From positions 1-43,812 of the IMG/VR virus record IMGVR_UViG_3300032322_000784: a DNA stretch of 43,812 bases. One strand, written 5' to 3'. Numbering within the stretch: position 1 is the stretch's first letter; each line of letters begins with the position of its first letter. The position numbers and the translations under genes were made by a program. Positions 1,423 through 33,502 of this stretch are shown here, one piece after another. Origin of the DNA: a virus. The notes under the pieces were generated by a model. The model ran no database searches. It was not told the origin of the DNA and saw nothing but the letters and a program-made list of their open reading frames with translations.

Positions 1423-3003
1423 TTAAATTGAGTACAGCCTATTTCTAGAACTCTTAAATCCTTTTATTTCTTCTGCTTCATCACTAGGCAACCTAATAAA
1501 TCCACCTTGTCTAAATCTTATTAATGCTAAAGTCGTGCTATCTACCAAGTCATCATTAGCACCACTAGGAAAATCGTTACATTCTTCTATAACTTCATGA
1601 GCCCATCGTCTATCGGGAGCCCATACTATACCACTTCTAAACAAATCTGACACAGCATTTACACGAGTTATCTTATCTTGCCCTTTACCTGGTGTAAATT
1701 CACCGACAGGGATACCCATACGTCTAAACTCTTGGTATAAAGCTGCACCATTAGATTTCTTTTCAACTAAAAATGCGTCTGGTTCCCATTCCTTATACTC
1801 TTCTATACATAATTCTTTGAGCTCTGGGAACTCTAATCGTTTCTTAATACTATTTAACAGTATTATATTATAGTTATTGGTTTCTTCGTTAAAAAAGACG
1901 CCCCAAGTGGTGAGCGCATTGTAGTCCGCTCTATTATTCGCCTCCTGGGCAGCATCTAAACTCATAATGGTAAATTCACAACTAGGAGGATCTTCTTCTT
2001 CCCATATTTTCCACCATTCTCTTTTAATTAACGCGCCTTCTTCTGATACTGGGTTCTGTAAATACTGTGCATTCCAATATCGCGTATCTAGCGCCGCTTT
2101 TTTAGCTAGTAATTCTTCTAGACTCCAAAACTCAGGCCATAGTGGTGTTTCAACGCCGTTTTTATCTTCTATAATTGCAGGGAACTCAACTACTTCCCAC
2201 TGATCTACCCCTTCTTGCTTCACCATCTGGTTCACAATCTGTCCAGTCAAGTCAAGCTTTGACCACCTCGTCATCACAACAATAATGGCACCGTTAGGCA
2301 TAAGACGCTGTATAGGGCCAGACTGAAACCACTCCCAAGCAGGGAGAAAAACATCAGCTCTTCCGAGCTTTGCATCTTGCTCAGAGTGTGGATCATCAAT
2401 GATAAAAAGATCAGCCCCGCGACCAGCGAGGGCACCACCCACACCAATCGCAAAATATTCACCATTAAAGTTTGTCCCCCATCTAGATGCTGATTTACTA
2501 TCTGCCTGTAACTCTACTTGCGGAAATATGTCTTTATACGCATCCGAGCCCACCAAATTACGGACACGACGACCAAAGCCAACCGCCAAATCAGCTGTGT
2601 GAGACGCCATAATAACCTTTTTAGCAGGAAATTTACCGAGGAACCATGCAGGCGCAAGATATGAAATAAGCTCTGACTTACCATGTCTCGGTGCAATGTT
2701 AACGATAACTCTTTTTTTCTTTCCTGCAGCAATATCTTCAAATATCTTAGCCAACCTCGCATGATGCGCTCCTATAATATATCCAGGGTAAACATGTTGT
2801 ATAAATTCTAAAAATGATGTGTTACCCGCATCTTGTACTATCTTACCATCCGTCAGTTCTAGTAGTGCATCTACTTCTTTAGCTTCTTCCTCTGCTAAAT
2901 GCTGCTTATGTGCTCCTAAAAACCTAATGAGTGATAAGACTCTTTTCTCTTGTTCTTTCTTTTCTTCTTCAGGCGTTAAGTTTTGATCCGCATTACTCAC
3001 CAT
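1423..3003 (-). CDS. terL: Terminase large subunit
   Basis: This is the packaging motor: an ATPase that drives DNA through the portal, plus a nuclease that cuts the concatemer. The ATPase shows a Walker A variant APRHGKS (residues 104-110), Walker B LFIIDD (199-204) and a coupling-type motif MTRW (244-247). The C-terminal RNase H-fold nuclease shows the expected acidic residues: D350 in MSLDAAQ, E414 in LVEKKSNG and D484/D485 in NDDLVD. At 526 residues it is full length. The start overlaps the end of the upstream gene by 11 nt. No strong Shine-Dalgarno is visible, so translation is probably coupled. Packaging type (headful or cohesive ends) cannot be judged here. Confidence 0.95.
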   Translation of the reverse strand: MVSNADQNLTPEEEKKEQEKRVLSLIRFLGAHKQHLAEEEAKEVDALLELTDGKIVQDAGNTSFLEFIQHVYPGYIIGAHHARLAKIFEDIAAGKKKRVIVNIAPRHGKSELISYLAPAWFLGKFPAKKVIMASHTADLAVGFGRRVRNLVGSDAYKDIFPQVELQADSKSASRWGTNFNGEYFAIGVGGALAGRGADLFIIDDPHSEQDAKLGRADVFLPAWEWFQSGPIQRLMPNGAIIVVMTRWSKLDLTGQIVNQMVKQEGVDQWEVVEFPAIIEDKNGVETPLWPEFWSLEELLAKKAALDTRYWNAQYLQNPVSEEGALIKREWWKIWEEEDPPSCEFTIMSLDAAQEANNRADYNALTTWGVFFNEETNNYNIILLNSIKKRLEFPELKELCIEEYKEWEPDAFLVEKKSNGAALYQEFRRMGIPVGEFTPGKGQDKITRVNAVSDLFRSGIVWAPDRRWAHEVIEECNDFPSGANDDLVDSTTLALIRFRQGGFIRLPSDEAEEIKGFKSSRNRLYSI

Positions 3004-3601
3004 TATTGATAACTTCGCCTTGAATTTCTTTTTCGTCTAACCTTTTTTGTAGTTTACCTACCAAGGACTGAAGTCTTGACTCTATAGCATCCATCGACAT
3101 ATTCTTATGGACCACTTCAGTATGTTTTTTAAAGGCATCTACACCATCAATGTCTCCTATGGCACGTAATGCTGTAATTCTTTCTTTAGGTTTATCTGCG
3201 GTTGTTGCTTCTCTTATCAACCCATTGACTACAAACGTCTTTAAGTCCTTTAACTCATCCACAACTTGTGCATCTAACTCAGCTACCATACCCGCTAAGC
3301 TTGCTAATGTCGCATTTTTATATTTTTTAAGTTGTAATTTGTTATTAGGGTCAGTAATCATGGTCTTAATCACAGACTTTGCCTCATCTACGTCTTCTTG
3401 CGTAGCCTCGATCTCTTGTCCGGTTAAGTCAGCAATTAGTTTTACGGTGTTAGCGAGCATTTCTACCTCTTCTTGATTAGTTAAATCAGGTAGTGCCTCA
3501 CGGGCGCTCTTAGGAATAGGGATATTTTCTTCCAAATTTGGCATCATCACGACGTCATATGGACTATCTATTTGAATTTCTTCAGTATTTTCTGTTTGCA
3601 T
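2993..3601 (-). CDS. Putative terminase small subunit
   Basis: This is probably the DNA-recognition subunit of the terminase. The evidence is position (immediately before and overlapping terL), size (202 residues) and a mostly helical, charged sequence. The C-terminal part RITALRAIGDIDGVDAFKKH resembles small-terminase oligomerisation segments, but I see no diagnostic motif. I start it at the ATG at 3601 because AGGTGA sits 11 nt upstream. An in-frame GTG at 3616 would add five residues but lacks its own Shine-Dalgarno. It is the first gene of the leftward operon, behind the promoter-like TTGCGA/TATAAA pair at 3676-3649. Confidence 0.7.
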   Translation of the reverse strand: MQTENTEEIQIDSPYDVVMMPNLEENIPIPKSAREALPDLTNQEEVEMLANTVKLIADLTGQEIEATQEDVDEAKSVIKTMITDPNNKLQLKKYKNATLASLAGMVAELDAQVVDELKDLKTFVVNGLIREATTADKPKERITALRAIGDIDGVDAFKKHTEVVHKNMSMDAIESRLQSLVGKLQKRLDEKEIQGEVINNGE

Positions 3602-3648
3602 GGGTTGCTGTATCACCTATGAATATATTTTTGCAGCTATTCTGTGAT

Positions 3649-5196: not shown

Positions 5197-5802
5197 ATGG
5201 CAACATTAAACTTAAAACAAATAGGTTATCAACAAGCTACAAACAAAGACAACGAGCGTTCACTAGCTCGGACTGTATATGAGGCCTATCCTAACTTTGA
5301 TGATGAGGTTGCGGACGAGCCAAAGGCCGAACTATTTGCGGGTTATCAATTAAGAATCGCCGAGAATCAGCCGAGCATTGATCAACATTTTATCGTTGAA
5401 AATGGTAATTACTTACCTGTTGAAAAACTCGCCTTTGATAATCACAAGGGTGAAAAGTATCACCGAACTGTTGCTAACATCATGGCCTATACGCCACAAG
5501 CGTTTGGCGCGTTAAGGACTAGCAATCCACAATTACACGCGATCATCAAGGCCGAGCGTGATCAAGTAAGCAAATATTGTAGCAACCGCTTGAATGATCT
5601 TAAAAAAGCGATCAAGGCCTTGAAAGGCGAGGGTCAGCCGAGACAACGAGGCGCAACCCGAACCTTTGCTGAAACTGTCAAAGAAACTTTAGATGGCCTT
5701 AAGAAAAAATGCGCCAATGCAAAGGCGCGAGGCGATGACAGCGCGAACGAAAAGAAACTCATAACCGCGATTTCAGAATTCAATCGTAAATGGGTTAGCT
5801 AA
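5197..5802 (+). CDS. Unknown 201-residue protein with distinct base composition
   Basis: The protein starts MATLNLKQIGYQQATNKDN. It has a mixed N-terminal half and a basic, helical C-terminal half with GEGQPRQRG at about 144-152, suggesting nucleic acid contact. No family recognised. It uses many GCG, GCC, GAG and CGA codons, unlike the AT-rich codons of neighbours. It is a complete unit on its own: promoter, leader hairpin, AGGAG site, gene and a strong UUCG terminator, all bracketed by direct repeats at 5046 and 5931. This suggests an acquired cassette or a highly expressed early gene with different codon selection. Host-takeover or anti-defence roles are possible but not shown. Confidence 0.8.
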   Translation: MATLNLKQIGYQQATNKDNERSLARTVYEAYPNFDDEVADEPKAELFAGYQLRIAENQPSIDQHFIVENGNYLPVEKLAFDNHKGEKYHRTVANIMAYTPQAFGALRTSNPQLHAIIKAERDQVSKYCSNRLNDLKKAIKALKGEGQPRQRGATRTFAETVKETLDGLKKKCANAKARGDDSANEKKLITAISEFNRKWVS

Positions 5803-5997: not shown

Positions 5998-6015
5998 ATT
6001 CACGTAGACGTGAAT
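5998..6015 (+). promoter_or_regulatory. Stem-loop of the TTCACG/CGTGAA family
   Basis: ATTCACG and CGTGAAT pair perfectly around TAGA. The same 6-bp core stem with other loops is found in the leaders at 6553 and 9014. Here no gene follows closely; the origin-like region does. Confidence 0.55.
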
Positions 6016-6089
6016 TTGTTCTGTGTTATGTGGTGTAAGATATACTTAGTTGATAGTGTGGTGTATGAGTTTAACTAAACATGAGCCGT

Positions 6090-6440
6090 GTTCTAAGTTG
6101 TTCTAATTTTGTTCTAAAATCTGTTCTATACTAAGTGTTTGATTAATAAGGAATGTTCTAGTGTTCTAAGGTTTTTAAGGTATAGGGGGGTTTTGGACTT
6201 TGTAAGACCAAGAGGTCGTTTTTCGCAGTGCAAAACATCGCAAACCAAAAAAATCGTTTTTCCCAGCATATACCTTAAAAACGCTAGAACATTAGAACAG
6301 CACAAGAACTATACTAATAATAATAATAAATAAATAATATATAAAACAAAGACTTACCAAGCAAAAACAGACACCAAAAACCTCAAATTCTGTTCCTATT
6401 TGTCAAGTATTTTTAGAACAGATTCTAGAACACGTAGAAC
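6090..6440. other. Candidate replication origin: iterons, inverted repeat, AT-rich segment
   Basis: No convincing gene lies here. GTTCTA occurs six times on the plus strand (6090, 6100, 6111, 6123, 6155, 6163). Its complement TAGAAC occurs five times to the right (6285, 6293, 6414, 6426, 6435). The middle is a long inverted repeat (6155-6184 with 6269-6298). Between the right-hand copies lies an AT-rich run with TAATAATAATAATAAATAAATAA. Iterons plus an easily melted segment are the classic look of a replication origin. A partition site or a large operator are alternatives. No initiator gene is adjacent. Confidence 0.55.
6155..6298. repeat. 30-bp inverted repeat with 84-bp spacer
   Basis: Arm 6155-6184 and arm 6269-6298 match in 27 of 30 positions when one is reverse-complemented, including an unbroken 14-bp block GTTTTTAAGGTATA. 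The spacer holds GGGGGG, a GACC/GGTC hairpin at 6206-6217, and two copies of TCGTTTTTC. Each arm carries two GTTCTA units. A cruciform or a dimeric protein-binding site is possible. Confidence 0.85.
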
Positions 6441-6471
6441 ACCGAAAAGTAAAAAAGTTATGTCAAGTTAT

Positions 6472-6499
6472 ATGTTTATATGTAAAGTTCTGATATAAT
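6472..6499 (+). promoter_or_regulatory. Extended -10 promoter, copy 1 (for 6596 genes)
   Basis: TGATATAAT (6491-6499) is an extended -10. This 28-bp block matches 8939-8966 in 24 positions. No -35 consensus is present, so it relies on the extended -10 or an activator. TATGTCAAGTTAT lies at 6459-6471, overlapping the -35 zone. Confidence 0.65.
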
Positions 6500-6552: not shown

Positions 6553-6568
6553 TTCACGTCAGCGTGAA
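6553..6568 (+). promoter_or_regulatory. Leader stem-loop before the 6596 gene
   Basis: TTCACG and CGTGAA pair around TCAG, followed by ACAATATAAC and AAGGAGATA. The 9014 leader has the same stem and following sequence with loop ACAA. Confidence 0.6.
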
Positions 6569-6595: not shown

Positions 6596-6778
6596 ATGAA
6601 CTATACAGAGCATAGCAAAAACAAAAAGCTTAACGACTATATGTCAAGTTATAACAGAGAGGTAACCATGAGCCAATACGTTACAGTGCCAAAAGCTAGA
6701 CTTCGTAGACTTATTATTACCGAGGTTATCGCATGGGGTATTGCAGGGTTTATTCTCGTGGTTAGTTTATTTCATTAA
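6596..6778 (+). CDS. Small membrane-anchored protein (60 residues)
   Basis: A polar, basic N-terminal half (MNYTEHSKNKKLNDY) is followed by one C-terminal hydrophobic segment (VIAWGIAGFILVVSLF), suggesting a tail-anchored inner-membrane protein facing the cytoplasm. I start it at the ATG at 6596, which has AAAGGAGA just upstream; a longer frame from the GTG at 6509 would run through the leader hairpin and is unlikely. It is the first gene behind the promoter at 6472. Function unknown. Confidence 0.7.
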   Translation: MNYTEHSKNKKLNDYMSSYNREVTMSQYVTVPKARLRRLIITEVIAWGIAGFILVVSLFH

Positions 6779-6825: not shown

Positions 6826-7035
6826 ATGGAGTATAAAAATCTATGTATTAAGTGTGGCGACCATGTATTACACGCAAGATACAAGCTAGGTTATACCACG
6901 TGTTTAAAGTGTGGCGAGGTAGATGCACGTAACAAAAAGCACACCATAGCACCAATGCACAAGAGTAATTATATGGTGATAACAAACAAACTAGACTTAC
7001 AAGGACTTAACAACAAGGGAGGGTTAGTAAAATGA
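6826..7035 (+). CDS. Small zinc-ribbon protein (69 residues)
   Basis: Two CxxC knuckles, CIKC (7-10) and CLKC (26-29), are followed by a basic tail with KKHTIAPMHKSNY. The pattern suggests a four-cysteine zinc ribbon. Small proteins of this form are common in phage early regions and may bind DNA, RNA or host polymerase, but no specific role is shown. GGGAGG precedes the ATG. The stop overlaps the next start as ATGA. Confidence 0.7.
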   Translation: MEYKNLCIKCGDHVLHARYKLGYTTCLKCGEVDARNKKHTIAPMHKSNYMVITNKLDLQGLNNKGGLVK

Positions 7036-7376
7036 GAGTATCAAACAACAAGGCAAGAGATTATGTAAATGGGTTCAAAGAGTTTCAAGGTAGCAATATG
7101 TATGGTAAGTGGTTAGACGTTGGGAATGGTAGAACAGAGACTAATTTACTTTATGCAGTTTATAGTTATGGTTCACACTTTCCTATGTATGTATGGGATA
7201 GCACCGAAAAGAAGTGGATAGGTAACAAGGATAAGTATTCACGTTCAACAACAAGGCATCAATCACAGGGTAGACCGAGTGGTGAAATTCATGTATGGTA
7301 TAACACCAACGACATGAAAGAGGTTATATATCATGGTGGGTTAGTAGCACTTACAATAAGCAAGGCACAACAATAG
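7032..7376 (+). CDS. Conserved-looking hypothetical protein (114 residues)
   Basis: Starts MRVSNNKARDYVNGFKEFQG, with aromatic-rich stretches (YAVYSYGSHFPMYVWDS) and a C-terminal MKEVIYHGGLVAL, suggesting a small globular alpha/beta fold. No catalytic motif seen. It overlaps the upstream gene by 4 nt, so translation is coupled. The composition looks like a real gene. Confidence 0.7.
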   Translation: MRVSNNKARDYVNGFKEFQGSNMYGKWLDVGNGRTETNLLYAVYSYGSHFPMYVWDSTEKKWIGNKDKYSRSTTRHQSQGRPSGEIHVWYNTNDMKEVIYHGGLVALTISKAQQ

Positions 7377-8467: not shown

Positions 8468-8923
8468 ATGGGCTATCGAAGTGAAGTCGCATATGGTGTC
8501 AAGGTTGATGAGATAAATCGTAACGATGAAGCCACAGAGGAAGAAAAGAATCTAAGTGCTGATGGCATATTCTTACTTATGCTCACCGAGATGCAACAAG
8601 ACCCAATAGCAGGAAAATGTTTTGATGATACCTACGAAATAAACGTTCACTTAACTGTGAACAAAGAAGCTAGGACTATCCTGTTTCATGAGCATAGCTT
8701 GAAGTGGTATGACAGTTATGAAGATGTAAAAGCTCATGAGAGACTATATCAAATCATGACGGAGTATGCTGAACTGTATGATGATAGAAATAATATGACT
8801 AATCCTGTGTCATGTAGTTTTACTAGGATTGGTGAGGAAGTAGGTGACATTGATGAATGTGGTAGTGGGTATGACCCGTGGAGTATTATGAATGTATATA
8901 CGAGTATAGATATACATATCTAG
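8468..8923 (+). CDS. Conserved phage protein with MGYRSEVAY start
   Basis: A 151-residue protein beginning MGYRSEVAYGVKVDEI. The MGYRS(E/D)V opening is familiar from many uncharacterised phage proteins, but I know no function. The middle has beta-strand-like repeats (TYEINVHLTVN) and the end is acidic (EEVGDIDECGSGYDPWS). It is the last gene before the second copy of the promoter-leader block at 8939, so it closes the 6472 unit. Confidence 0.7.
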   Translation: MGYRSEVAYGVKVDEINRNDEATEEEKNLSADGIFLLMLTEMQQDPIAGKCFDDTYEINVHLTVNKEARTILFHEHSLKWYDSYEDVKAHERLYQIMTEYAELYDDRNNMTNPVSCSFTRIGEEVGDIDECGSGYDPWSIMNVYTSIDIHI

Positions 8924-8938
8924 TTTATTTCAAGTGCT

Positions 8939-8966
8939 ATGTTTATATGTCAAGTTATGCTATACT
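8939..8966 (+). promoter_or_regulatory. Extended -10 promoter, copy 2 (for AAA/VWA module)
   Basis: TGCTATACT (8958-8966) is an extended -10. The block matches 6472-6499 in 24 of 28 positions. TATGTCAAGTTAT (8946-8958) lies in the spacer. Confidence 0.65.
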
Positions 8967-9013: not shown

Positions 9014-9029
9014 TTCACGACAACGTGAA
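9014..9029 (+). promoter_or_regulatory. Leader stem-loop before the 9051 gene
   Basis: TTCACG and CGTGAA pair around ACAA, followed by ACAATATAAGGAGATA and the ATG. It is the counterpart of the 6553 stem-loop. Confidence 0.6.
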
Positions 9030-12747: not shown

Positions 12748-12904
12748 TAAGAAACAGAAAGAAATTATAGTAAGTAATGTAAGAGTGAAAGGGTATGTTA
12801 AACATGCCAATGGTAGAAAAACATTGTTTGATTTTAGTAAACACGACTTTGAACCGAAGTCATTAGAGAAAATATTTGAAGAACTAGGGAGGAAGTATGA
12901 ATAG
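12740..12904 (+). CDS. Hypothetical 54-residue protein
   Basis: Starts MSDKKQKEIIVSNVRVKGYV; basic, with likely beta strands in its first half and a helix at the end. AGGAGG sits 6 nt before the ATG. It overlaps the previous gene by 8 nt and the next by 8 nt, which fits this operon and supports it being real. Function unknown. Confidence 0.65.
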   Translation: MSDKKQKEIIVSNVRVKGYVKHANGRKTLFDFSKHDFEPKSLEKIFEELGRKYE

Positions 12905-13931
12905 AAGTTTGACGTATGAACATTTAAAAAGAATAACAGAACAAGTTAAACCATATAGAGGGACAATAGATAAGTATCCCTTTAGTGATAGAAACCACAA
13001 CTACAAATACTTTTATCCCAAAGAAGTGAATGGTGAAATAGAGTATCACGTAGGTTATTATCACAAGTGGGAAACAGAGACTATGACTGCCGAGGAATTT
13101 AATGCCAAGAAAGATAGTATGGTTAAGGGAGAACGTAAAAAATGGCGAGAGGAAACAATATGGAAGAAAGATTCTAGTGGAATTGAAAGGACAGGCAATT
13201 ATATAAAGGATTTTAAAAACCCTAAGGTAGATTTAATTATTAGGTCAGACAACACAGTAGAGATTGTGACTGATAGCTTTCATCAAGGTATGCGTATGAT
13301 ATTTTCTGCATGGAACTATGCCAATGGTGTATTTCAATCAAGTGTTGGTCATGGTGGTATCGTGTATAGACGTAGAGATAATGGGGTAGATATAACAATA
13401 CCAATCTTTAAACATATACGATTCAACATGGATACTATGGCAATACACGAATCATCAAAATACATAGCAACATATAAGACAGTAGATAGAAAGAAATCTA
13501 AAGAAGCTATGAACCTCTATCAAGATAAACTTAATGGTGCGTTTGCATTTATATCTTGTATGGATATAGAATCTTTTAATCAAGACAGAGATGAAGTAAT
13601 AGATGAACTTACACCTGATTATAAAGGTTCACATTGGTGGAGTAAAAATATGCGAGAAGAAGCGACTGAGTTAGCTGATAAGATACTTTTTGATAAGCCT
13701 GTGGAAAGTGTTTATCTACTCATGAAAGCATTTAATGTTGGGTATTATATGAGTAGCCTAGCACACCCTAGTGATTGGATTAGTAGCTTTAAGAAAAAGT
13801 TTGCTAAGTATATTCACGTTAAACATAATACTTTCACTAAAGAATATCTTACACATCTAGAAAACTTTAAATCATCACCATGGAACATAGAAATCACAGT
13901 TAATGGTAAAATGGTAGAACGACTTAAATAA
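12897..13931 (+). CDS. Unknown 344-residue protein
   Basis: A full-sized soluble protein starting MNRSLTYEHLKRITEQVKPY. It is aromatic-rich, with a lysine-rich segment near 80-100 and NIEITVNGKMVERLK at the end. I find no catalytic motif or known domain. The segment HQGMRMIFSAWNYANGVFQ near 129-147 looks like a conserved core. GGGAGGAAGT precedes the ATG. It sits between the AAA/VWA module and the nuclease genes, so a DNA-metabolism or host-interaction role is possible but unsupported. Confidence 0.7.
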   Translation: MNRSLTYEHLKRITEQVKPYRGTIDKYPFSDRNHNYKYFYPKEVNGEIEYHVGYYHKWETETMTAEEFNAKKDSMVKGERKKWREETIWKKDSSGIERTGNYIKDFKNPKVDLIIRSDNTVEIVTDSFHQGMRMIFSAWNYANGVFQSSVGHGGIVYRRRDNGVDITIPIFKHIRFNMDTMAIHESSKYIATYKTVDRKKSKEAMNLYQDKLNGAFAFISCMDIESFNQDRDEVIDELTPDYKGSHWWSKNMREEATELADKILFDKPVESVYLLMKAFNVGYYMSSLAHPSDWISSFKKKFAKYIHVKHNTFTKEYLTHLENFKSSPWNIEITVNGKMVERLK

Positions 13932-14409: not shown

Positions 14410-14602
14410 GAGTGGTATCCCTGACATCATCGCCTGCTATAAAGGTAGGTTCATCGCTATAGAATGTAAAGCAGGAAAGGGTCAAGTCACTGCGTTGCAA
14501 AAATACAACATCGACCAAATCAAGGCTAATCAAGGCTTGGCAATCATTATAAATGAGGGTAATATAGAGGAAGTATTAACTCTAGTAAAGGAGGAAGTAT
14601 GA
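14315..14602 (+). CDS. VRR-NUC family nuclease
   Basis: A 95-residue PD-(D/E)xK nuclease. The core GIPDIIACYKGRFIAIECKA gives the catalytic set D37, E50 and K52, typical of stand-alone phage VRR-NUC domains (Holliday-junction or flap-type nucleases). AAGGAC lies 6 nt before the ATG, inside the preceding gene. Its stop overlaps the next start by 4 nt. It probably processes branched or damaged DNA during replication or packaging; the exact substrate is not known. Confidence 0.88.
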   Translation: MTPEAKVKNKVKKILDSLGCYHFSPQTGGYGKSGIPDIIACYKGRFIAIECKAGKGQVTALQKYNIDQIKANQGLAIIINEGNIEEVLTLVKEEV

Positions 14603-14853
14603 CATTAGCAGAAGAATTTGAAAATAGTAAAATAGATATGGTAAACCACCCACCACATTACACCAACGGGGGTATAGAAACAATAGACTACATCAGAGCC
14701 AAGATGTCAGGTGAAGAATACATTGGCTATCTCAGAGGTAACATTCTTAAATACACAAGCCGAATTGGTCTTAAAGGTAACCCTGCTGAAGACGCAGGTA
14801 AGATAGTTTGGTATGCCACGGAACTCAAAAAGTTTTTATCTAATATTAAATAA
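14599..14853 (+). CDS. DUF3310 family protein
   Basis: An 84-residue protein with VNHPPHYTNGGIETIDYI (15-32) and NILKYTSR (48-55), the signature of DUF3310, a small phage and prophage family sometimes labelled nucleotide kinase-like without biochemical proof. AGGAGG precedes the ATG and it overlaps the nuclease gene by 4 nt. A 48-nt gap with GTAACTGGTTTC follows, the inverse of a repeat seen near 5851. Confidence 0.85.
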   Translation: MTLAEEFENSKIDMVNHPPHYTNGGIETIDYIRAKMSGEEYIGYLRGNILKYTSRIGLKGNPAEDAGKIVWYATELKKFLSNIK

Positions 14854-16836: not shown

Positions 16837-17115
16837 ATGTCAGACAATTTTTATTGTTTTAGTTGTGGTAAACATAAGTCGGTAGAAGCAAGGTCAAATA
16901 CAAAAATAGGTAGATATAAGAAATCATACTTATGTAAAACTTGTGATACAAAAGCTAAAAAGAATACGGCTAATTGTAATAAAGACCCTGAAGCATATAT
17001 AGGATATGGAACATATAAAGTAAAACACCTAAGAACTGCTAAAGACAATACAAATAAAAAGAATTACAGAACAGATGTAGTTTATAACAAGTTTAAAGAA
17101 CGAAACATCATTTAA
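16837..17115 (+). CDS. Zinc-ribbon protein upstream of DNA polymerase
   Basis: A 92-residue basic protein with CFSC (7-10) and CKTC (33-36), a four-cysteine zinc ribbon, followed by a K/N/T-rich tail. Its TAA overlaps the polymerase ATG by one base (TAATG), so the two are translationally coupled. Position suggests a replication accessory role, as inference only. Confidence 0.65.
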   Translation: MSDNFYCFSCGKHKSVEARSNTKIGRYKKSYLCKTCDTKAKKNTANCNKDPEAYIGYGTYKVKHLRTAKDNTNKKNYRTDVVYNKFKERNII

Positions 17116-18983
17116 TGAACCTAATCACACTTGACTTTGAAACTTTTTACGAACAGGGTTTCAGTCTATCAAACCTAACCACAGAGGAATACATACGCCA
17201 TGAAAAATTTCAAGTTATTGGAGTGGGTGTTAAGATTGACGACCAAGAAACTCAATGGATTACAGGCACACATAACCATATTAAAACTAAACTTATGGAG
17301 ATTAATTGGAACGAAGCCATTTTACTTTGCCATAATACACAATTCGATGGTGCTATTCTCTCGTTTATTTTTAACATTATCCCAGCTATTTATCTTGATA
17401 CTCTTGGCATGGCTCGTGCTAAGCATGGTGTGGATGTGGGTGGCTCCCTTGCGGCTCTTGTCGAACGATACCAACTAGGTAAAAAAGGAACTGAGGTTGT
17501 TGATGCTAAAGGTAAACGTGTAGAAGATTTTACCGCAGAAGATTTAAAACAGTATGGGGAGTATTGTAAGAACGACGTAGACCTTACCTATAAACTATAT
17601 AATGTTCTAGCACAAGATTTTCCAGCAAACGAAATGAAACTAATTGATATTACAATTAGAATGTATACCCAACCTAGATTGTGTTTAGATGATGCCCTAT
17701 TATCTACTAGACTAGAAGAAATAAAACTGGAAAAAGAAGAATTACTCAGTGCATTAATGGGTAAACTAAATTGCGATACATCTGAATGTGTTCGTAAAAG
17801 ATTAGCTTCTAATAAAAAATTTGCTGAGTTATTAAAAGAATTTGGTGTAGAAGCTCCGTTAAAAATATCCCCTACCACAGGTAAAGAAACATTTGCGTTA
17901 GCTAAGAATGATGAAGGCTTTATTGCACTAACTGAAGATGATGACCCATTCATACAACAATTATGTTCTGTTAGATTAGGCACTAAATCAACTATTGAAG
18001 AGTCAAGAATAGAGAGATTCTTAGATATTGCATCAAGAAATAAAGGCAAGCTTCCTATACCGCTAAAGTATTATGGTGCTCATACAGGGCGGTGGGCAGG
18101 CTCAGATAAAGTTAACTTCCAAAACTTACCTAGTCGTGATAAGAAAAAGAAAGCATTAAAGAACGCGGTTGAAGCACCGCTAGGTAGTATAGTTATTAAC
18201 TCAGACTCATCTCAAATTGAAGCTCGGATACTTGTATGGTTAGCAGGGCAAGACGATGTCGTTCAATGGTATAAAGATGGGCGAGATGTTTATTGTGAGT
18301 TTGCATCTACTGTATATGATAGACCTATTACTAAAGCCGATGCAACAGAACGATTCGTAGGTAAAACTTGTACACTAGGTCTAGGCTATGGGACTGGATG
18401 GAGTAAGCTACAACATACACTTAAAACTTCACCTCCAGGTGCTATCTTAGATGACCAAGAATGTCAAAGGCTTGTTAAAGTTTATCGCAAGGTCAATGAT
18501 AAAGTTATTAAGTTATGGGAAGAATGTGACAAAGCTTTAAAGAGTATAGTATTTTGGGATGAGGACTCTAAGCCATATTACTTAGGTAAACACAAGTGTG
18601 TGCTAGTCACTAGAGAAGGATTGCAATTACCTAACGGGTTATATATTAAATACCCTGAACTTAAATTAGAAAAAGAAGATGGTAAAGATAAGTTTGTATA
18701 TAAATCTCGTAAAGGTTATATATCTTTGTGGGGTGGTTCAGTTGTAGAAAACGTAGTGCAAGCGTTAGCTAGAATTATCATAGGTGAACAGATGATAGCA
18801 ATTAATGAAAAGTATAAGCCTGTGCTAACCGTACACGATGCTATTGTATGTATTGCCGAAGAAGCAGATAAAGATAATGCTATGAAATATATTACTGACA
18901 TAATGTCTACACCACCGTTATGGGGACAGGACTTACCTATTACGTGTGAAGCTAAGTATGGACAAAGTTACGGAGATTGTTAA
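17115..18983 (+). CDS. polA: Family A DNA polymerase with 3'-5' exonuclease
   Basis: The replicative polymerase, 622 residues. The exonuclease domain shows Exo I DFETF (D7, E9), Exo II NTQFD (74-78) and Exo III CKNDVD (D154). The polymerase domain shows motif A DSSQIEAR (364-371), motif B RFVGKTCTLGLGYG (413-426) and motif C VHDAI (573-577) with catalytic D575. Leucine 421 aligns with E. coli Pol I position 762, and alanine replaces the usual glutamate after D575. There is no 5'-3' exonuclease domain. It lacks its own Shine-Dalgarno and is coupled to the zinc-ribbon gene. Confidence 0.96.
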   Translation: MNLITLDFETFYEQGFSLSNLTTEEYIRHEKFQVIGVGVKIDDQETQWITGTHNHIKTKLMEINWNEAILLCHNTQFDGAILSFIFNIIPAIYLDTLGMARAKHGVDVGGSLAALVERYQLGKKGTEVVDAKGKRVEDFTAEDLKQYGEYCKNDVDLTYKLYNVLAQDFPANEMKLIDITIRMYTQPRLCLDDALLSTRLEEIKLEKEELLSALMGKLNCDTSECVRKRLASNKKFAELLKEFGVEAPLKISPTTGKETFALAKNDEGFIALTEDDDPFIQQLCSVRLGTKSTIEESRIERFLDIASRNKGKLPIPLKYYGAHTGRWAGSDKVNFQNLPSRDKKKKALKNAVEAPLGSIVINSDSSQIEARILVWLAGQDDVVQWYKDGRDVYCEFASTVYDRPITKADATERFVGKTCTLGLGYGTGWSKLQHTLKTSPPGAILDDQECQRLVKVYRKVNDKVIKLWEECDKALKSIVFWDEDSKPYYLGKHKCVLVTREGLQLPNGLYIKYPELKLEKEDGKDKFVYKSRKGYISLWGGSVVENVVQALARIIIGEQMIAINEKYKPVLTVHDAIVCIAEEADKDNAMKYITDIMSTPPLWGQDLPITCEAKYGQSYGDC

Positions 18984-23061: not shown

Positions 23062-23952
23062 ATGAGTAATGAATTATCAGTAATATTACAAAATAGTGGC
23101 GGATTAATCCAAACAGGGCTAGATGAAGATACCTTAGCCGTTGCTGGTGGTTCCGTTAACCAAGGTAGTAAACGTATTTCAATTCGTGGTAAAGCATTTA
23201 GAAAAGTAGTTGGTGGTAAAGAAGTAAGTGTCTCAGAAAATAATTACATGGATGTTGTGATTGTTAAGATGGCACATACTGCATCAAGAACTTTCTACGC
23301 ACAATCATATAAGGAAGGTGAAAAGATTAGTCCTACATGCTGGTCTAGTGATAGCCGCGTTCCTGATATTGATGTAAAGACACCACAATCTAAAACATGC
23401 GACACTTGTCAATTTAGTGCTAAAAATTCAGGGGCTAATGGCACGGGTACCGCATGTCGTCTATCATGGAGAATGGCTGTTGTATTACCTAATGACCCTG
23501 CTGGTGATGTTATGCAATTAGTTTTACCTGCTACATCATGTTTTGGTAAGGAAGAAGGTGGTAAGTATCCATTCAGACCATATGTTCAATTATTAGCTAA
23601 CAATAATGTTAGTGCTGGTCGTGTAGTAACTCGTATGCAATTTGATGCTAAGGCTTCTACACCTAAAGTATTATTTAGCCCAGCAGCTGCCGTTAATGCT
23701 AATGACTTAGAAGTCTTACAAAGACAAGGTAAATCTTCTGCTGCAGAAAGTGCTGTTAAATTAACTGTATATCAAACAGATGAAACTACAACAGAAACTC
23801 CAGTACAAGCAGCACCAGTACAAGCAGCTCCGATAGATGTTAAGTCTGACGTAGATGTATCAGAGCCAGTACTAAGACCTTCTAATCAAGCACCAGCTCA
23901 GCCATTAAACAACGCGAGTGAAGTGATGAAGAAATGGTCGGTTAAAAACTAA
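23062..23952 (+). CDS. Possible single-stranded DNA-binding protein
   Basis: A 296-residue protein. Residues 1-240 are beta-rich, with cysteines C93, C113, C116, C132 and C160 suggesting a zinc site. The C-terminal 60 residues are disordered, with repeated VQAAPVQAAP and acidic stretches. That build, and its place between helicase and primase, fits a phage ssDNA-binding protein, but no diagnostic OB-fold motif was recognised. Start at ATG 23062 with GGAGA upstream; a GTG at 23050 is in frame. It overlaps the next start by 1 nt. Confidence 0.55.
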   Translation: MSNELSVILQNSGGLIQTGLDEDTLAVAGGSVNQGSKRISIRGKAFRKVVGGKEVSVSENNYMDVVIVKMAHTASRTFYAQSYKEGEKISPTCWSSDSRVPDIDVKTPQSKTCDTCQFSAKNSGANGTGTACRLSWRMAVVLPNDPAGDVMQLVLPATSCFGKEEGGKYPFRPYVQLLANNNVSAGRVVTRMQFDAKASTPKVLFSPAAAVNANDLEVLQRQGKSSAAESAVKLTVYQTDETTTETPVQAAPVQAAPIDVKSDVDVSEPVLRPSNQAPAQPLNNASEVMKKWSVKN

Positions 23953-24254
23953 TGGCAAGACCCTATAGCACTGATTTTTTAGCTACGCTAAGTACATTGG
24001 ACCCTAACAGACTTGGGGTTCAGTTGGCCAAACTATGTGTCCAAGCAAACCTACCTACGCTATATATTGCACGTAAGTTAGGTGTATCACGCTATACGAT
24101 ACATAGTTGGTTTAGGGGTCAATACATTAGAAAAACTAATAAAGTAAAAGTTGAATCATTAATACAAGAACTTGACAAGGGGTTTGCTGAGAATAAATTT
24201 CCAGTACTTACTCTATCTTTAGCTAAACAGTATTTGGATTCAATAGAGATTTAG
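23952..24254 (+). CDS. Helix-turn-helix DNA-binding protein
   Basis: A 100-residue protein. LAKLCVQANLPTLYIARKLG followed by VSRYTIHSWFRGQ (about 25-57) is a classic XRE-type helix-turn-helix. The rest is helical. It could regulate phage promoters such as the duplicated ones here, or mark the origin; no target is shown. Being inside the replication operon and not divergent from a partner argues against a lysogeny repressor. Confidence 0.75.
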   Translation: MARPYSTDFLATLSTLDPNRLGVQLAKLCVQANLPTLYIARKLGVSRYTIHSWFRGQYIRKTNKVKVESLIQELDKGFAENKFPVLTLSLAKQYLDSIEI

Positions 24255-24306: not shown

Positions 24307-24344
24307 GTGGGGCAGTGTTGTCTCTAAAAACAGAAAGCATACAG

Positions 24345-27323
24345 ATGATAAGCATAACAGATTTTTATAATAAGGTGCTTCCCTCAAAAGGTGTATATTG
24401 TATTATCACTATTGAGCCTAAAGAAGGTGCAACAAAACACTACTATGTAGAATCCATAGCTGAGTTAGAACCCCAAATTGAAAAATTAAAACAGTCAGAA
24501 GTTAACATCTATGTATCTCATAGCACATACAAAGGTTGGAAAAGAGGTAAACAAGAAGCTGTATTTTCTAAGTCTTTATTTATTGATTTAGATGTAGACC
24601 CTGAAGATATAGACGGTAAAAAATATAAATCTAAAGAAGAAGCTGAACTAGCTTTAAATGATTTCCTTGCTAAGACAGGATTACCTGAACCTATTAGATT
24701 TGATTCTGGCCGTGGTATGTGGGCATGGTGGGCTTTTGATAGAGATATTGAAATAGAACAATGGAAACTATATTCAGAAACATTTAAGAAGTTTTGTTTA
24801 GATAACGAATTAAAGATTGATGTCAATGTAACTGCTGACGCAGCTCGTGCTACCCGTACACCTAATTGTACTAACTGGAAAGCTATTCCCCCTACGCAAA
24901 CAAAAGTACTAAGTGATGAGATGCAATCATATGTATTTGATGAGTTTAAAGAATTTTTAGATGGAATAAGCCCCGTTGATCTATCAATAGAAGCTATATT
25001 AAAAGAAGCTAAAAAAGGTTTATCGCAAGAAGAACGAGAGGCACAAGGTGGTAGCCCGTACGAAAATAGTTTTGAACAACTATTAGATGAGAGTATTAGA
25101 GGCATAGGATGTCAGCAAATTAAGTACGCCTATGAAAACCAAAATAAAGTAGATTATGATTTATGGACTGCTTGCCTGACGGTAGCTAGCCGTTGTGTTG
25201 ATTCTGAAACAGCTATTCATACTATATCTGAAAAAGCTCCTAACTATAATCGTGAAGCTACTGTATTAAAAGCAGCTTCATTTGGTGGTGTACATCCATG
25301 TACTTCTTTTGAAAATGCTAATCCTGACGGGTGTGAAGGATGTATTAAACGAGGCCAAATATCTAATCCTTTATATTTTGGTAGAAGACTACGTACTATT
25401 CCTATTGTACCTGCTGTAATAAGCACTGAAATAGAAGACGGACAAGAGGTAGAAGAAAAGCTAGTAGTTGAAGTAGGCTCTACTGAAGTTATGCTAGATG
25501 ACGACGCAAATTATACTTACCCTCCACAGATGCTACCCTTCTTTAATGTACCAGGTAAAGGTATTTTTATGGAAGTGGCTGGTAAGTTTGATGCAAAAAC
25601 AGGAGAAGTTATTAAGTCTCCTCCTATAGTAATTTGTGAAGTAGAATTTAAAGCTATTAAAAAAATAAAATGTATAGGTGAAGACGGTCCAGGGGATTCT
25701 ATGGTAATAAGGGCTAAATTTCCTCACGATGAACCTATAGAATTTCCGTTTCCTTTAGCACATATGTATTCCGCTGAGAAACTCATGGATGCTTTTGCTA
25801 GAAAATCAATAACTGTTGAAAGAAAGAATGTGGTGCACTTTATGGAATGTATTATTAAATGGGGTGGATACTTAAGAAATAGAGGTCGATCTGATATTAT
25901 GCGTACGCATTTTGGTTGGACAGACGATGACAGAACTTCTTTTGTAATAGGTAATAAAGAATACATGAGAGATGGTACGATCAATCCAATAGCCTACGCT
26001 CCTCAAACAAGAGATTATGGTCTTTTTATGGAACCTAAAGGTAGCTTTGAAACTTGGAAAAATGCTGTTAGAAATTTTAATACACCGGGCATGGAAGTAC
26101 ACGCATTTGCTATGTTAGTTGGCTTTGCTTCTCCTTTAGTTGCTTATACAGACTTAAATGGTATTGTTATATGTTTATCAGGTGAAGCTGGTGCTGGTAA
26201 AACAGGTGTTATGTTTGCAGCTAATTCTCCATGGGGCCATCCTGAAAAGATGTATATTAAAGGTAATTCAAAATCCACTGCGGGTGGTGGAGCTACATTT
26301 AATGCATTACAGATTATTATGTCAGCATTAGGTAACTTGCCTTTTACTATAGATGAAGTAACTAATTTACCTACAGATCAAGTATCCCCTATGATTCATA
26401 TGATATCTAGTGGTAAAACAAAATACAAAGCTCATGGGTCTACTAATGCTATAAGAACCATAGAATCTTCATCTAAACTAATGGCTTTATGGACATCAAA
26501 TAGTTCTTTATATCAAAAATTAAAAGAAACAAATTCAGATCCAAACGGCGAATTTGCTAGACTAGTAGAGTTTGATATTGGGCAACCTGCGCCTTTACAA
26601 GAAAATGATTTGTTCGGTAAAAGAACTTTTAGTGTTATGTTAAATCACCATGGCCATGCAGGGTCTAAATATATTCAAGCTGTTTATGAGTTAGAAGCTA
26701 AAGGAGAAGTATTTAGAGACATAAATGATCCTGATCAAAAATTAGGTCCTAGGTTTCAAAAATGGATTGATAGATATGTTAAAGATGTAGGTTGGGACCC
26801 GGCGGAACGGTTTCATCATATGGCTATTGGTTTATGTTTTGGGGCTGGAGAAATATGTAATGAACATGGTATAACAGATGAATTACCTTTAGAACGAATC
26901 TATACAGTTATAGTTGAAAAAATGTTAGCTAACAAAAAAGAAAATGCTAAGATTAATAATATAGATTGTGAAAGTATTATAGGTACGTTTATTCTTAAAA
27001 ATGCTCAAAATATATTAACTATTAAAAATGAAAAAGTATATGAAGAACCTAGAGGCAGTTTAGTTATTAGAGCTGATAGTGATAAAAACATCATATATAT
27101 TCCTTCGAGCATACTTGAAACATATCTTAAAACAGAAGCTAAGGTATCTAATATAAATGCATTTAAAAAACAATTAAAAACTAATAATATAGATTATGAA
27201 ATTAAAAAGACTCGTATGACTACTTATTGGGACAAGATGCCTCCATCGGCAGAATGGAATCTATACTGTTACTGCTTTAAAAATTTAAAAATATCAGATA
27301 TAGCAAAATCTACAGATGAGTGA
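24345..27323 (+). CDS. Primase-helicase (AEP-like primase fused to DUF927-like ATPase)
   Basis: About 992 residues. The N-terminal part has FIDLDVD (79-85), DSGRGMWAWW (120-129) and DAARATRTPN (166-175), the metal-binding and nucleotide-binding pattern of archaeo-eukaryotic (PrimPol) primases. The C-terminal part is an ATPase with Walker A GEAGAGKT (613-620) and Walker B FTIDEV (667-672), of the DUF927 helicase type. It would prime and unwind DNA for the family A polymerase. The start is uncertain: ATG 24345 lacks a good Shine-Dalgarno, and GTG 24315 adds 10 residues. It overlaps the next gene by 8 nt. Confidence 0.85.
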   Translation: MISITDFYNKVLPSKGVYCIITIEPKEGATKHYYVESIAELEPQIEKLKQSEVNIYVSHSTYKGWKRGKQEAVFSKSLFIDLDVDPEDIDGKKYKSKEEAELALNDFLAKTGLPEPIRFDSGRGMWAWWAFDRDIEIEQWKLYSETFKKFCLDNELKIDVNVTADAARATRTPNCTNWKAIPPTQTKVLSDEMQSYVFDEFKEFLDGISPVDLSIEAILKEAKKGLSQEEREAQGGSPYENSFEQLLDESIRGIGCQQIKYAYENQNKVDYDLWTACLTVASRCVDSETAIHTISEKAPNYNREATVLKAASFGGVHPCTSFENANPDGCEGCIKRGQISNPLYFGRRLRTIPIVPAVISTEIEDGQEVEEKLVVEVGSTEVMLDDDANYTYPPQMLPFFNVPGKGIFMEVAGKFDAKTGEVIKSPPIVICEVEFKAIKKIKCIGEDGPGDSMVIRAKFPHDEPIEFPFPLAHMYSAEKLMDAFARKSITVERKNVVHFMECIIKWGGYLRNRGRSDIMRTHFGWTDDDRTSFVIGNKEYMRDGTINPIAYAPQTRDYGLFMEPKGSFETWKNAVRNFNTPGMEVHAFAMLVGFASPLVAYTDLNGIVICLSGEAGAGKTGVMFAANSPWGHPEKMYIKGNSKSTAGGGATFNALQIIMSALGNLPFTIDEVTNLPTDQVSPMIHMISSGKTKYKAHGSTNAIRTIESSSKLMALWTSNSSLYQKLKETNSDPNGEFARLVEFDIGQPAPLQENDLFGKRTFSVMLNHHGHAGSKYIQAVYELEAKGEVFRDINDPDQKLGPRFQKWIDRYVKDVGWDPAERFHHMAIGLCFGAGEICNEHGITDELPLERIYTVIVEKMLANKKENAKINNIDCESIIGTFILKNAQNILTIKNEKVYEEPRGSLVIRADSDKNIIYIPSSILETYLKTEAKVSNINAFKKQLKTNNIDYEIKKTRMTTYWDKMPPSAEWNLYCYCFKNLKISDIAKSTDE

Positions 27324-27516
27324 ACTACAAGAACCTGAATGGCTATTCCCATTTGAGTATATGAAAATAGGAGAGAGTTTTTTTATTCCCACTATGGAGA
27401 CAGCTCAAATGGTACATGCCATAGAATCAGGAGCTAAAAAAGCTAAGATAGGAATTAGGGTATATATTACTCAAAAGGAAAATCATTTAGGCGTTAGAGC
27501 CTGGCGTATTAGTTAG
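27316..27516 (+). CDS. Hypothetical 66-residue protein, end of rightward genes
   Basis: The sequence has WLFPFEYMKIGESFFIPTME then a helix and GIRVYITQKEN, GVRAWRIS, a pattern common in short phage proteins next to replication genes; function unknown. It overlaps the primase-helicase by 8 nt at the start, and its last 8 nt overlap the 3' end of the leftward 1,997-residue gene. Confidence 0.65.
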   Translation: MSELQEPEWLFPFEYMKIGESFFIPTMETAQMVHAIESGAKKAKIGIRVYITQKENHLGVRAWRIS

Positions 27517-30500
27517 ATTCAACTTCGTCTATAAGATTTACTGTACTAGTAATTTGACGCTTAATTACATTTTGTGCATCTTTAAGAGGATCTAACAAAG
27601 CTTTTCTTTCTTTAGGGCTAAGGCCTGGCATACGTCTAAACTGATTAGCATCTTCTCTTAATTGTTTTAGTTCACCATTTATCATCTCATTATACATATC
27701 AACCAATGCTGGATCTAACGGGTGATCAGATATATATTCTGCGTACTTAACAGGATTAGTTTCAAACATTTTTAGTAGGCGTTCTTTTTTCTTAACACTT
27801 TCTTCCATTTTAGCAAACTCTCTTAAGTCTACATTAGACTTAGTACTAATAAAGCTTTCTAAAATAAATAGATCTCGTTTAGGATCAAAGTCTTTTTGCC
27901 CTGCAAGAGTTAATCCTAGACCATAACCGTTATGCATAATTCTAGTTAAGCCATCCATGTAGTTATTAGCAAAGAAATATAAAGAGTTAGGGCTTGCATC
28001 TATACCCCAATTATCTACCATAAATCTAGCTGCATCTTTGTATGCGTCAGGAATATTATCTCCACCTGTATATGCATTACCAAATCTTGATTGTCTGTTG
28101 TTATAAATTTCTTGACCAAATGCATTCATGTTCATAGCATATTCAAAGAAAGGTCTAGCTATTGACGGCGTTACAGAATCCAACACAAATGCTGAAGGAT
28201 TATCAACCATATTAATTCTAGATACAGGTAATGGTACAAAAGAATCTAAACCAATATTAACAATATTACTAAATATATCTGCTAAGTCATTTGTTTTAGA
28301 AGACATAGCTCCCGCTATTTGAGCCCCTGCAGCCATAAAGCCGCCAAGACCAAAGCCCCACGGTATCTGTACTACTTTATCTTCACCAATATCAAAGCGT
28401 GCAAAACGAGTCCATCGAGATAAGTCATCATTAATAATCTTGTTACGACCTTCATCATCATCGTCAGCTAAACCTGCGGACATTAGGTATATAGTAGCAC
28501 CAGCACCTAATAAAGATAATACAACTGTTGCAGCGGTTCTACTTTGTTTTCTCCAATTAGCTTCATATTCAGCTAATGCCTTAGGATCTTTAGTAATAGT
28601 TTCAGGTAATGATTTCTTAACTGAGTCCCAGCTTCTTAACATAGGACCAATAGATTCAAACGCACGAACAGCACCTGTAGCAGATGGTCTAAAGAATACA
28701 AATAGTGCACCTAATGTTTTACCCCACTCACCAACCTCTTCAAAGTTAGCTAATTGTTTTGCATAAACTGCACCAACTTCTTTAGCTGCATCGCCTTTAA
28801 TACCTCTAGCTTCTGCGTCTGATTTAGCTATACGATATGCGGCTGCTCTAGCTGCCAACTCGAATGTAGATACCCAACCATCAAAGAATGGGTCTATTTG
28901 TTCTTTAACTTTAAGAATCTTACTTTGGTTTAACTCTTTATATAATTGACCTAATTGACTCTTAACAGATAAACCTTGCACTATAGATACAAGACCACCC
29001 TGCTCAATATAGTCAATCATATCTTTCATGTATGGGTCTTTAGATAACTTTCTTAATCCTGCGATATCACCTTTGGCGTAAAGCCTTGCTACCTTATTAG
29101 CTTTAAATAAACCACCGTTTGCAACTTGAGCGCCAACTGCACCTATGTATTTAAATGCTTCTACAGGACCAATATCAATAGCCATCACAAAAGCATTAGT
29201 TAATGTATCACGTACAAAGTTAAGTACGGGGAATGCAGGGTTATAACGAGTATGAGATTGACCTATTAAACTAGTAAATCTATTCACCATATCTAACATA
29301 GGATGTGAATCTTTATATGTACGACGGATAGATTCTAGTAACGCAGGGTCTTTAATACGGATTACATCCATAGAACCATCTTGATTATGGTGCACAATAG
29401 AGCTACGTTGGTTGATAAGATTTATTGCCTGCTGATCCAAGCCTTTATATACTTCACCTGCAGTATAAGTAGCTACAACTTCACCGTCGATAATCTTTTG
29501 ATTTACAGCGTTCTTAATAGATTGAGTTAGTCCTTTTCTACCAGCACGTGCAGCAGACACCGCACTTTCAACCATTGTTTGTATAATAGGATTTTCAGCT
29601 TCAGATAATCTTCCTTCGAATGCATACGGAGAATCTTTAAGTTCAGCACTTAATCTTTTATCATCTAATTCTAGATCAGCCACATTATTAGGCATCTTAC
29701 TTGCAGGTTTTCCTTTTAACGGAACATAGTTTTGCCAATTATAAAATCGTTTAATATTATCTGTAGAGTTAGACCAGTAGTTACCTTGTTTATTTAACTC
29801 TATAGTTGCATCTTGTACAGGCTTAAGTGCTGCCATAACCTCATTCATAAGTTTAATGTGAGGAGATTTTTCAAATCTATTTCTTAACGCGGCTATTTCT
29901 TGAGAGTTAAATTCAGCAGTTACGTTGTAATCAGCACTTTGTTCATTAATAGATTTATATTTACCTTCACCAGCTGGGTCTTTATATCTGGCTACAAGGT
30001 CTTCTAATTTAGCCCGTAGAGCTTTTATTTGTGCATCAGATAAACTGTTACTAGTAGCTATAGCCTTTAATATTTTTTCTCTTTCATCAGCTGCACTTGT
30101 AGGATTACCATTTTTATCTCTTAGATTTTTATCCACACTTAAAGGTACAGTTTTTAAAAATTTAATATGGCGTCGTTCTGGTTCATGTAATGCTTCAGCA
30201 TATCTATGTAATTCACCAAGTGCTTTACCTATAGGTTTATCCACCGCTTTAGCGTAATCATTTATTAAATTTTGTAACTTTTGAACAGGAGCCATTAAAT
30301 ACTCTTTATTTCTAAAGTCAGCTTCGCCAAACGCTAAAGAAATTTGATCATAGATATTAGTAAAATTAGGTCCACCTACAGTAATCTTGCCAGCCTTCAT
30401 TAAATCTTGTTGCCACTTCTTAATTGCATATCTACTATTTTGGAATTTAGTAATGAGCTGATCTCTAGCCTTTTCACCTATAAGTGTTTTCTTAACTGTT

Positions 30501-33500: not shown

Positions 33501-33502
33501 AT
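27509..33502 (-). CDS. Giant internal virion / DNA-ejection-type protein (1,997 residues)
   Basis: The largest gene here. The N-terminus (MDLKSFRQQYPQYDAVSDEQ) is one I associate with large virion proteins of environmental podoviruses. Residues 100-330 are Ala/Gly-rich and hydrophobic, with membrane-like stretches. Residues 330-700 are charged and coiled. HETMH (832-836) is a zinc-peptidase motif. A segment near 1420 (FPVLNFVRDTLTNAF) resembles polyvalent-protein domain LPD38. Another hydrophobic segment is near 1670. It is probably packaged and ejected with the DNA, perhaps forming a conduit and cutting a host protein. It is the last gene of the leftward operon. Confidence 0.75.
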   Translation of the reverse strand: MDLKSFRQQYPQYDAVSDEQLANALHTKYYSSIPLDQFYSKIGLTPTPAETPDATFGESLKDVGVSALQGVLGAKEAITGIADIPTMGLAGKGVAAAEKAIFGGTSQEGREKLQQLKSAEAQQEEKEIAETKGFLPTAKAYIERPGALLGVVTESIPTMLGGAGIARGALSTVAKQVGKKAAPLIAGAVGEGAVTAGSIAEATRQDSESGLITPGQAAGATIGGALTAGLGVFGGKVAKKLGVADVDTLLAGGATAAEKQNILKAAFKGALSESVFEELPQSIQEQITQNLNMGRPWDEGVAEAGASGMLAGALMGGTASAISQAKDNYTIANKNNPTPPPTKESEETLTGDVKTKTPALAKEEDLDIDSILSTEEFKDEQPKPRKSRKGVPVLGGPEDGAAGDAKGDDGSGVVRGGVDSQPADVGEGKQPTALTKDSILGDMAAEGLQFKNTSQVRNYLKTKVDKATLTQLELETPSLVKDLFNERKSQAKLTNMMGVKAEPIGEQAETLPTYLETISPYAKEAPINKERGIQTAGVEEAFDTIDTADIKRLKAQLTEIATQKTAEALTKRKADIERVMQEQRISKKKATNLIGPAKDFTFSGLRPTEFMTREELLGLYEENKNKRDLESEEQIKAKESRDAFITSLSEEEQAVKNKIRDDAIIRELESNRQQVINEQLLKQKRKDIKKSNDLDEKIALIEEREAKLIPEADTKPALETEGQILSKGTRVVNKAVNSALSNNKPFLDVLTDLAGGEFNKYFSYQTVADMLGKKISVLAKPKAMGMKGMALPTIKYGTVEKGRPGKFDPATNTITIDPNNAQGQDLGQIVMHETMHYMLDHIIDNRKNLSEGQKNALKRLDQLHKQVKSKLGKDFDIPNLKEFVAEAFTNSDFQRALASLRPPPGSKLYRTAADIVWNISKAIVSALGLRFDTVKPVVLQETIDLVSSIITDKAYTLPTETMAGKQVSFAPKQDKEAKPFNIEAAIDKVEVKEYNKPTAVQTVKKTLIGEKARDQLITKFQNSRYAIKKWQQDLMKAGKITVGGPNFTNIYDQISLAFGEADFRNKEYLMAPVQKLQNLINDYAKAVDKPIGKALGELHRYAEALHEPERRHIKFLKTVPLSVDKNLRDKNGNPTSAADEREKILKAIATSNSLSDAQIKALRAKLEDLVARYKDPAGEGKYKSINEQSADYNVTAEFNSQEIAALRNRFEKSPHIKLMNEVMAALKPVQDATIELNKQGNYWSNSTDNIKRFYNWQNYVPLKGKPASKMPNNVADLELDDKRLSAELKDSPYAFEGRLSEAENPIIQTMVESAVSAARAGRKGLTQSIKNAVNQKIIDGEVVATYTAGEVYKGLDQQAINLINQRSSIVHHNQDGSMDVIRIKDPALLESIRRTYKDSHPMLDMVNRFTSLIGQSHTRYNPAFPVLNFVRDTLTNAFVMAIDIGPVEAFKYIGAVGAQVANGGLFKANKVARLYAKGDIAGLRKLSKDPYMKDMIDYIEQGGLVSIVQGLSVKSQLGQLYKELNQSKILKVKEQIDPFFDGWVSTFELAARAAAYRIAKSDAEARGIKGDAAKEVGAVYAKQLANFEEVGEWGKTLGALFVFFRPSATGAVRAFESIGPMLRSWDSVKKSLPETITKDPKALAEYEANWRKQSRTAATVVLSLLGAGATIYLMSAGLADDDDEGRNKIINDDLSRWTRFARFDIGEDKVVQIPWGFGLGGFMAAGAQIAGAMSSKTNDLADIFSNIVNIGLDSFVPLPVSRINMVDNPSAFVLDSVTPSIARPFFEYAMNMNAFGQEIYNNRQSRFGNAYTGGDNIPDAYKDAARFMVDNWGIDASPNSLYFFANNYMDGLTRIMHNGYGLGLTLAGQKDFDPKRDLFILESFISTKSNVDLREFAKMEESVKKKERLLKMFETNPVKYAEYISDHPLDPALVDMYNEMINGELKQLREDANQFRRMPGLSPKERKALLDPLKDAQNVIKRQITSTVNLIDEVESN

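Follow-up and report, generated by a model that had tools for sequence, protein, structure and literature searches.

A putative iteron-type replication origin and its probable primase-helicase initiator in a family of uncultured tailed phages

Iteron-containing origins read by primase-helicases are already known. The alpha protein of phage P4 joins primase, helicase and origin binder in one chain, and the type 1 repeats of the P4 ori and crr, TGTTCACC, are spaced by 10-11 bp. Phage lambda possesses iterons adjoining an AT-rich tract, and its O protein is neither a helicase nor a primase. The lambda iterons are inverted repeats of ~19 bp situated inside the O gene (PMC7466680), and a cloned lambda ori region can block the plating of phages of the same replication type (PMC3349717). 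For SaPIs, the Rep protein has been reported to read its iterons via its C-terminal domain, and Cch, a DUF927-containing protein, is related to Rep of SaPIbov1 (PMC7581432). Fusions of an AEP primase with DUF927 have been predicted to represent replication helicases of mobile elements (PMC5862659).

The window analysed here, a phage contig of 43,812 bp from IMG/VR, carries an array of 11 copies of the word TGTTCTA at 6089-6441. The preliminary description of this DNA had noted six copies of GTTCTA facing five of TAGAAC, and both the number and the orientation are confirmed, with six forward copies (GTTCTA starting at 6090, 6100, 6111, 6123, 6155 and 6163) followed by five reverse ones (TAGAAC starting at 6285, 6293, 6414, 6426 and 6435); the 6-mer extends to the 7-mer TGTTCTA in all 11 cases. 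The copies are spaced by 8-12 bp, plus gaps of 32, 122 and 121 bp, and follow no single fixed period. That such a count lies beyond chance was also borne out, as 60 order-2 Markov shuffles of the complete window gave at most five copies of any 7-mer within 360 bp. The inverted repeat, described previously as 30 bp long with 27 matches, is present together with its 84-nt spacer, but its arms (6154-6184 and 6269-6299) measure 31 nt and are complementary at 28 of 31 positions (90%); the outer arms, 6088-6119 and 6411-6442, pair as well. The adjoining TAA run is indeed AT-rich, containing the most AT-rich 50-mer of the window. The elements of the array, together with the coding features discussed below, are the following.

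6089-6128, forward strand: left outer iterons, four copies of TGTTCTA (6089, 6099, 6110, 6122)
6132-6144, reverse strand: exact match to the IHF consensus, AATCAAACACTTA, between the left outer and inner iterons
6154-6168, forward strand: left inner iteron pair (6154, 6162), 8 bp apart
6154-6184, forward strand: left arm of the inverted repeat
6185-6268: central spacer, 84 bp, holding TTTTTCGCAGTGCAAA at 6219-6234, which is kept in nearer relatives
6269-6299, reverse strand: right arm of the inverted repeat, which includes the right inner iteron pair (6285, 6293)
6307-6356: AT-rich tract of TAA repeats, the proposed unwinding element
6344-6356, forward strand: second IHF-like site, AAACAAAGACTTA, with one mismatch, inverted relative to the left site
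6391-6397, forward strand: degenerate forward iteron TGTTCCT, its position kept in relatives
6414-6441, reverse strand: right outer iterons, three copies of TGTTCTA (6414, 6426, 6435)
6491-6499, forward strand: extended -10 promoter-like element, TGATATAAT, lying outside the array and assigned to the rightward early genes
17115-18983, forward strand: family A DNA polymerase
24315-27323, forward strand: proposed initiator, 1002 aa, combining an AEP primase with a DUF927 helicase and, at the C-terminus, a winged-helix-like domain; translation probably starts at the ATG at 24345
26883-27320, forward strand: C-terminal winged-helix-like domain, the proposed iteron reader

The array occupies a non-coding region upstream of the rightward operon, as originally described; the ORFs crossing it are just 6126-6305 (reverse strand) and 6139-6333 (forward strand), both TTG-started chance frames, neither of them credible. 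The leftward genes encode structural proteins and terminase, and the rightward ones, from 6.5 to 27.5 kb, are early and replication genes, including those for an ATPase, the family A polymerase, a RecB-like exonuclease, an SNF2-type helicase and the 1002-aa primase-helicase. P4 requires crr as a second site, whereas here there is one array per genome, as seen in the two long genomes checked (G007 and G008). Rfam gave no match, nor did DNA-level searches of phage records with the array region and the replication genes, and no DnaA box (TTWTNCACA) occurs within 3 kb of the array. A turn of the GC skew had been suggested as a check on the array; a cumulative minimum does exist, but it lies 2-4 kb away and coincides with divergent transcription, and it therefore neither supports nor refutes an origin.

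A search with the ATPase identified 216 relatives in IMG/VR. The nearest cultured relative with the same gene order is Rhizobium phage RHph_TM3_14A, and a more distant one is Pseudomonas phage Rollin. An array is present at the same place in dozens of relatives and can be traced down to ~40% ATPase identity, with a word that is uniform inside each phage and varies between phages: TGTTCTA, TGTTCCA, TGTTCAA, TGTTCTG, TGTTCGG, TGTTCAT, GGTTCATG, AGTTCAC and AATTCCA, and at a greater distance GTTCCGG, TTGTTCCA, TTGTGCA and TTGTGCC. The expectation that the repeat pattern would recur in close relatives thus held for layout and place and failed for the word itself, which changes as a set, so a search of close relatives for GTTCTA alone would have misled; it found few arrays, whereas a word-free search revealed them in most relatives. 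In the typical order, the outer forward copies come first, and after them an IHF-type site and two inner copies ~8 bp apart; beyond the spacer stands the inverted inner pair, followed by an AT-rich tract, a single forward copy and, last, two or three copies in reverse orientation. The IHF-type site is located between the left iteron groups in most relatives, and 21 origins together hold 25 exact matches to the IHF consensus, where 1.1 would be expected, the majority of them lying between the left outer and inner iterons. Rollin has the same order of elements with the word TATGCAA, which differs from the weak word of RHph_TM3_14A. One array (L005) is mixed, with seven copies of TGTTCTG, two of TGTTCTA and two of TGTTCTT, and looks like a word change in progress, and in one genome (L047) no array was found near the ATPase. 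In the Rollin record (L108:1-500), long palindromes, AAAAGGTAGYAASTTRCTACCTTTT, are repeated at the record start, adjoining the TATGCAA array.

The preliminary description had sought an unrecognised initiator among the small genes. A likelier candidate is the 1002-aa primase-helicase encoded at 24315-27323, whose divergence follows the word and which, judged from the sequence comparisons below, is most probably the initiator, 18 kb downstream of the array. A profile built from 19 members matches the SCCmec Cch helicase (PDB 5dgk, 5e-17) and SaPIbov1 Rep (PDB 8tch, 4e-14), and Pfam DUF927 is found in 19 of the 19 members. The predicted structure (mean pLDDT 78.7) retrieves the same two helicases with Foldseek for its middle part and AEP primases for its N-terminus; the C-terminal model is winged-helix-like, with weak matches to DNA-bound winged helices and to the Cch C-terminus. 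The phage protein thus shares its DUF927 helicase family, by profile and fold, with SaPIbov1 Rep and Cch, and the SaPIbov1 replicon likewise has a short-iteron origin for whose reading the C-terminal domain of Rep is reported to be responsible (PMC7581432). There are also differences: the phage helicase carries a fused AEP primase, conserved IHF-type sites are present, and the element itself is a tailed phage of roughly 60 kb that encodes a polymerase of its own. Moreover, the SaPI origin lies directly downstream of rep, whereas here the origin (6.1-6.4 kb) precedes the proposed initiator gene (24.3-27.3 kb) by 18 kb; the replicon is therefore not of the SaPI type, even though the protein is a member of the DUF927 family. 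The P4 alpha protein is comparable in its domain content, and the P4 repeats have the same TGTTC core as the array; despite this, no homology between the primase-helicase and alpha was detected (hhalign probability <1%). In contrast to lambda, the iterons are 7-mers in a non-coding region. The primase-helicase of RHph_TM3_14A (MN988472.1 42239-45322; L146:12240-15323) is annotated as 'putative integrase protein', and its position and similarity indicate a homologue of the proposed initiator. The 1997-aa protein encoded at 27509-33502 in the window had no PDB match, so it could not be identified as an N4-type virion RNA polymerase.

The link between the word and the primase-helicase comes from 33 genes common to five genomes with 95-97% identical ATPases, in which pairs with the same word were compared with pairs with different words (TGTTCTA in the window and L012, TGTTCCA in L004 and L013, TGTTCAA in L010). 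The primase-helicase was by far the best of the 33 genes, with a gap of 26 points (92 and 84% identity in same-word pairs, 39-58% in different-word pairs), in a test that comprises few independent events and for which label permutation alone gives about 1 in 15. The next largest gaps were 12 points for a neighbouring ORF (23952-24254) and 6 points for the family A polymerase, whose divergence weakly follows the word too, and most other genes showed none. Between the window and L004 the primase-helicase is 56% identical and the ATPase 97%, a divergence of the former equal to that of phages with 79% identical ATPases; residues 1-350 are ~80% identical and the helicase and C-terminus ~45%, with the break after the primase domain. 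Other pairs fit this picture, close enzymes going with the same word in L018/L020, G048/G050 and G041/G051. In L022, whose primase shares 72% identity with the L018 one, the L018 word, GGTTCATG, was therefore expected; the word predicted, GGTTCAT, was then found at the contig end. The L062 and L064 enzymes are 96% identical and, in the aligned part of the C-terminal winged helix, are distinguished just by Q908E and E911D, and the base that follows GTTC is not the same in their two words; these residues are a lead to specificity and not proof, as the enzymes also differ at other positions. With 20 genomes, a partial Mantel test relating the word to the primase domains gave no significance (p 0.11-0.23), since the same words turn up repeatedly and deep identities are saturated, and the case is hence carried by the close group and the matched pairs. 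Extra primase scans for more close genomes yielded contigs without the array region, and in the 95% group the primase is missing from L005 (word TGTTCTG), L006, L007 and L009.

Five other candidates were considered as readers of the word, namely the 207-aa protein encoded at 2993-3616, the fast-evolving 344-aa protein encoded at 12897-13931, and the genes at 5197-5802, 7032-7376 and 8468-8923; the divergence of none of them follows the word. The 344-aa protein reaches just 25-35% identity to its counterparts in relatives, although the genes around it are 63-82% identical there. Several distinct versions of a DUF3310 gene (14599-14853), with 20-99% identity, are mixed among phages that are otherwise nearly identical, which suggests that the gene is often replaced.

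The 207-aa protein deserves attention for another reason, since the array is 2.5 kb from the terminase genes and might be a packaging (pac or cos) site read by a small terminase, perhaps this very protein, which lies beside the large terminase and varies faster than it does. Yet the protein is 71% identical between the window and L014, which have the same word, and 77% identical between the window and L005, which do not, and an AT-rich unwinding tract with IHF sites between repeat groups is more typical of an origin; we regard a packaging role as very improbable. Another alternative is that the repeats form an operator array, through which a phage repressor or activator controls the early rightward promoter. 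The array does immediately precede the rightward early operon, a TATAAT-like box is found ~50 bp to its right and at a similar place in most close relatives, and immunity systems offer known examples of diversified operators. Most of the 350 bp are, however, far from the promoter, the sequence of the promoter region stays constant while the word changes, no small DNA-binding gene separates by word, and separate palindromes (at 5999 and 6553), which in the close group likewise stay constant while the iteron word changes, look more operator-like, all of which makes this explanation unlikely. A partition (centromere-like) or host-factor site with no role in replication, finally, would account for the clustering of direct and inverted repeats, which occur in such sites too, but the gene that follows the word encodes a replication primase-helicase and not a ParB-like protein, and word changes among phages whose neighbouring genes are 97% identical would not be expected with a host factor; we give this possibility hardly any credence.

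The array is, in our judgement, very probably a theta-type phage origin, bound by the primase-helicase via its C-terminal winged helix with the assistance of IHF. The replication-origin reading of the preliminary description gains support from the family-wide layout, the co-variation of the word with the primase-helicase, the AT-rich tract and the IHF-type site. The points against it include the L047 genome, the differing words of the two cultured relatives and the distance of the initiator gene from the origin, unlike in SaPIs. The array, its layout and conserved place, the word changes, the co-variation of the primase-helicase and the protein's family and fold were computed directly; from these we infer binding, the number and facing of hexamers, use of IHF, the site of melting and bidirectional initiation, with the SaPI and P4 precedents as the guide for binding, loading and direction. 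On the simplest reading, the winged helix at the C-terminus of the primase-helicase would bind the TGTTCTA iterons, and the protein would assemble on the two inverted iteron groups, probably as two oppositely facing hexamers, while host IHF may bend the DNA between outer and inner iterons and so bring the groups together. The adjacent TAA-rich tract would then melt, each helicase ring would load, and the fused AEP primase would prime synthesis in both directions for the phage family A polymerase.

What is new is a family-wide origin of an uncultured phage group, distant from the gene for its proposed initiator, together with an extensive natural set of words that change with this protein. The origins of most uncultured phages are unknown, and the one described here is recognisable across the family by its layout despite the changing word. 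Competition among co-infecting phages or satellites is one possibility for the word change (compare lambda, PMC3349717, and geminiviruses, PMC12548392), although geminiviruses are single-stranded DNA viruses with a rolling-circle Rep, unrelated proteins and iterons of 5-6 nt. It is conceivable, if rather doubtful, that the phages form 'replication types', in which the word and the C-terminus of the primase-helicase are exchanged or re-tuned together, with selection favouring escape from competition with co-infecting relatives or same-origin satellites; such types, if real, would resemble immunity or incompatibility groups, but in phages without a detected repressor. Natural pairs of word and initiator, such as L062/L064, make a change of initiator DNA specificity directly testable, and the same pairs allow one to ask whether the origin type decides which phages replicate in one cell.

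Two further sets of repeats occur around the early genes. The motif TATGTMAAGTTAT (6459-6472, 6640-6653 and 8946-8959) is situated near the early promoter and upstream of early genes, with a copy directly before the TATAAT-like box in many close relatives. Perfect palindromes with a centre of 2-4 nt recur upstream of early genes in the window (5999-6014, 6553-6568 and 9014-9029) as well as in L018, L034, L041, L052, L064 and L083. Their sequence is uniform inside one phage and differs from phage to phage, being TTCACG-nnnn-CGTGAA in the window, AATCGGGAACTCCCGATT in L034, TTCGACATATGTCGAA in L018 (12 sites at ≤1 mismatch) and CCTGACAcccTGTCAGG in L052 (11 sites at ≤1 mismatch). These palindromes, which flank the origin on both sides, look like a second diversified recognition system, perhaps consisting of early promoters or operators.
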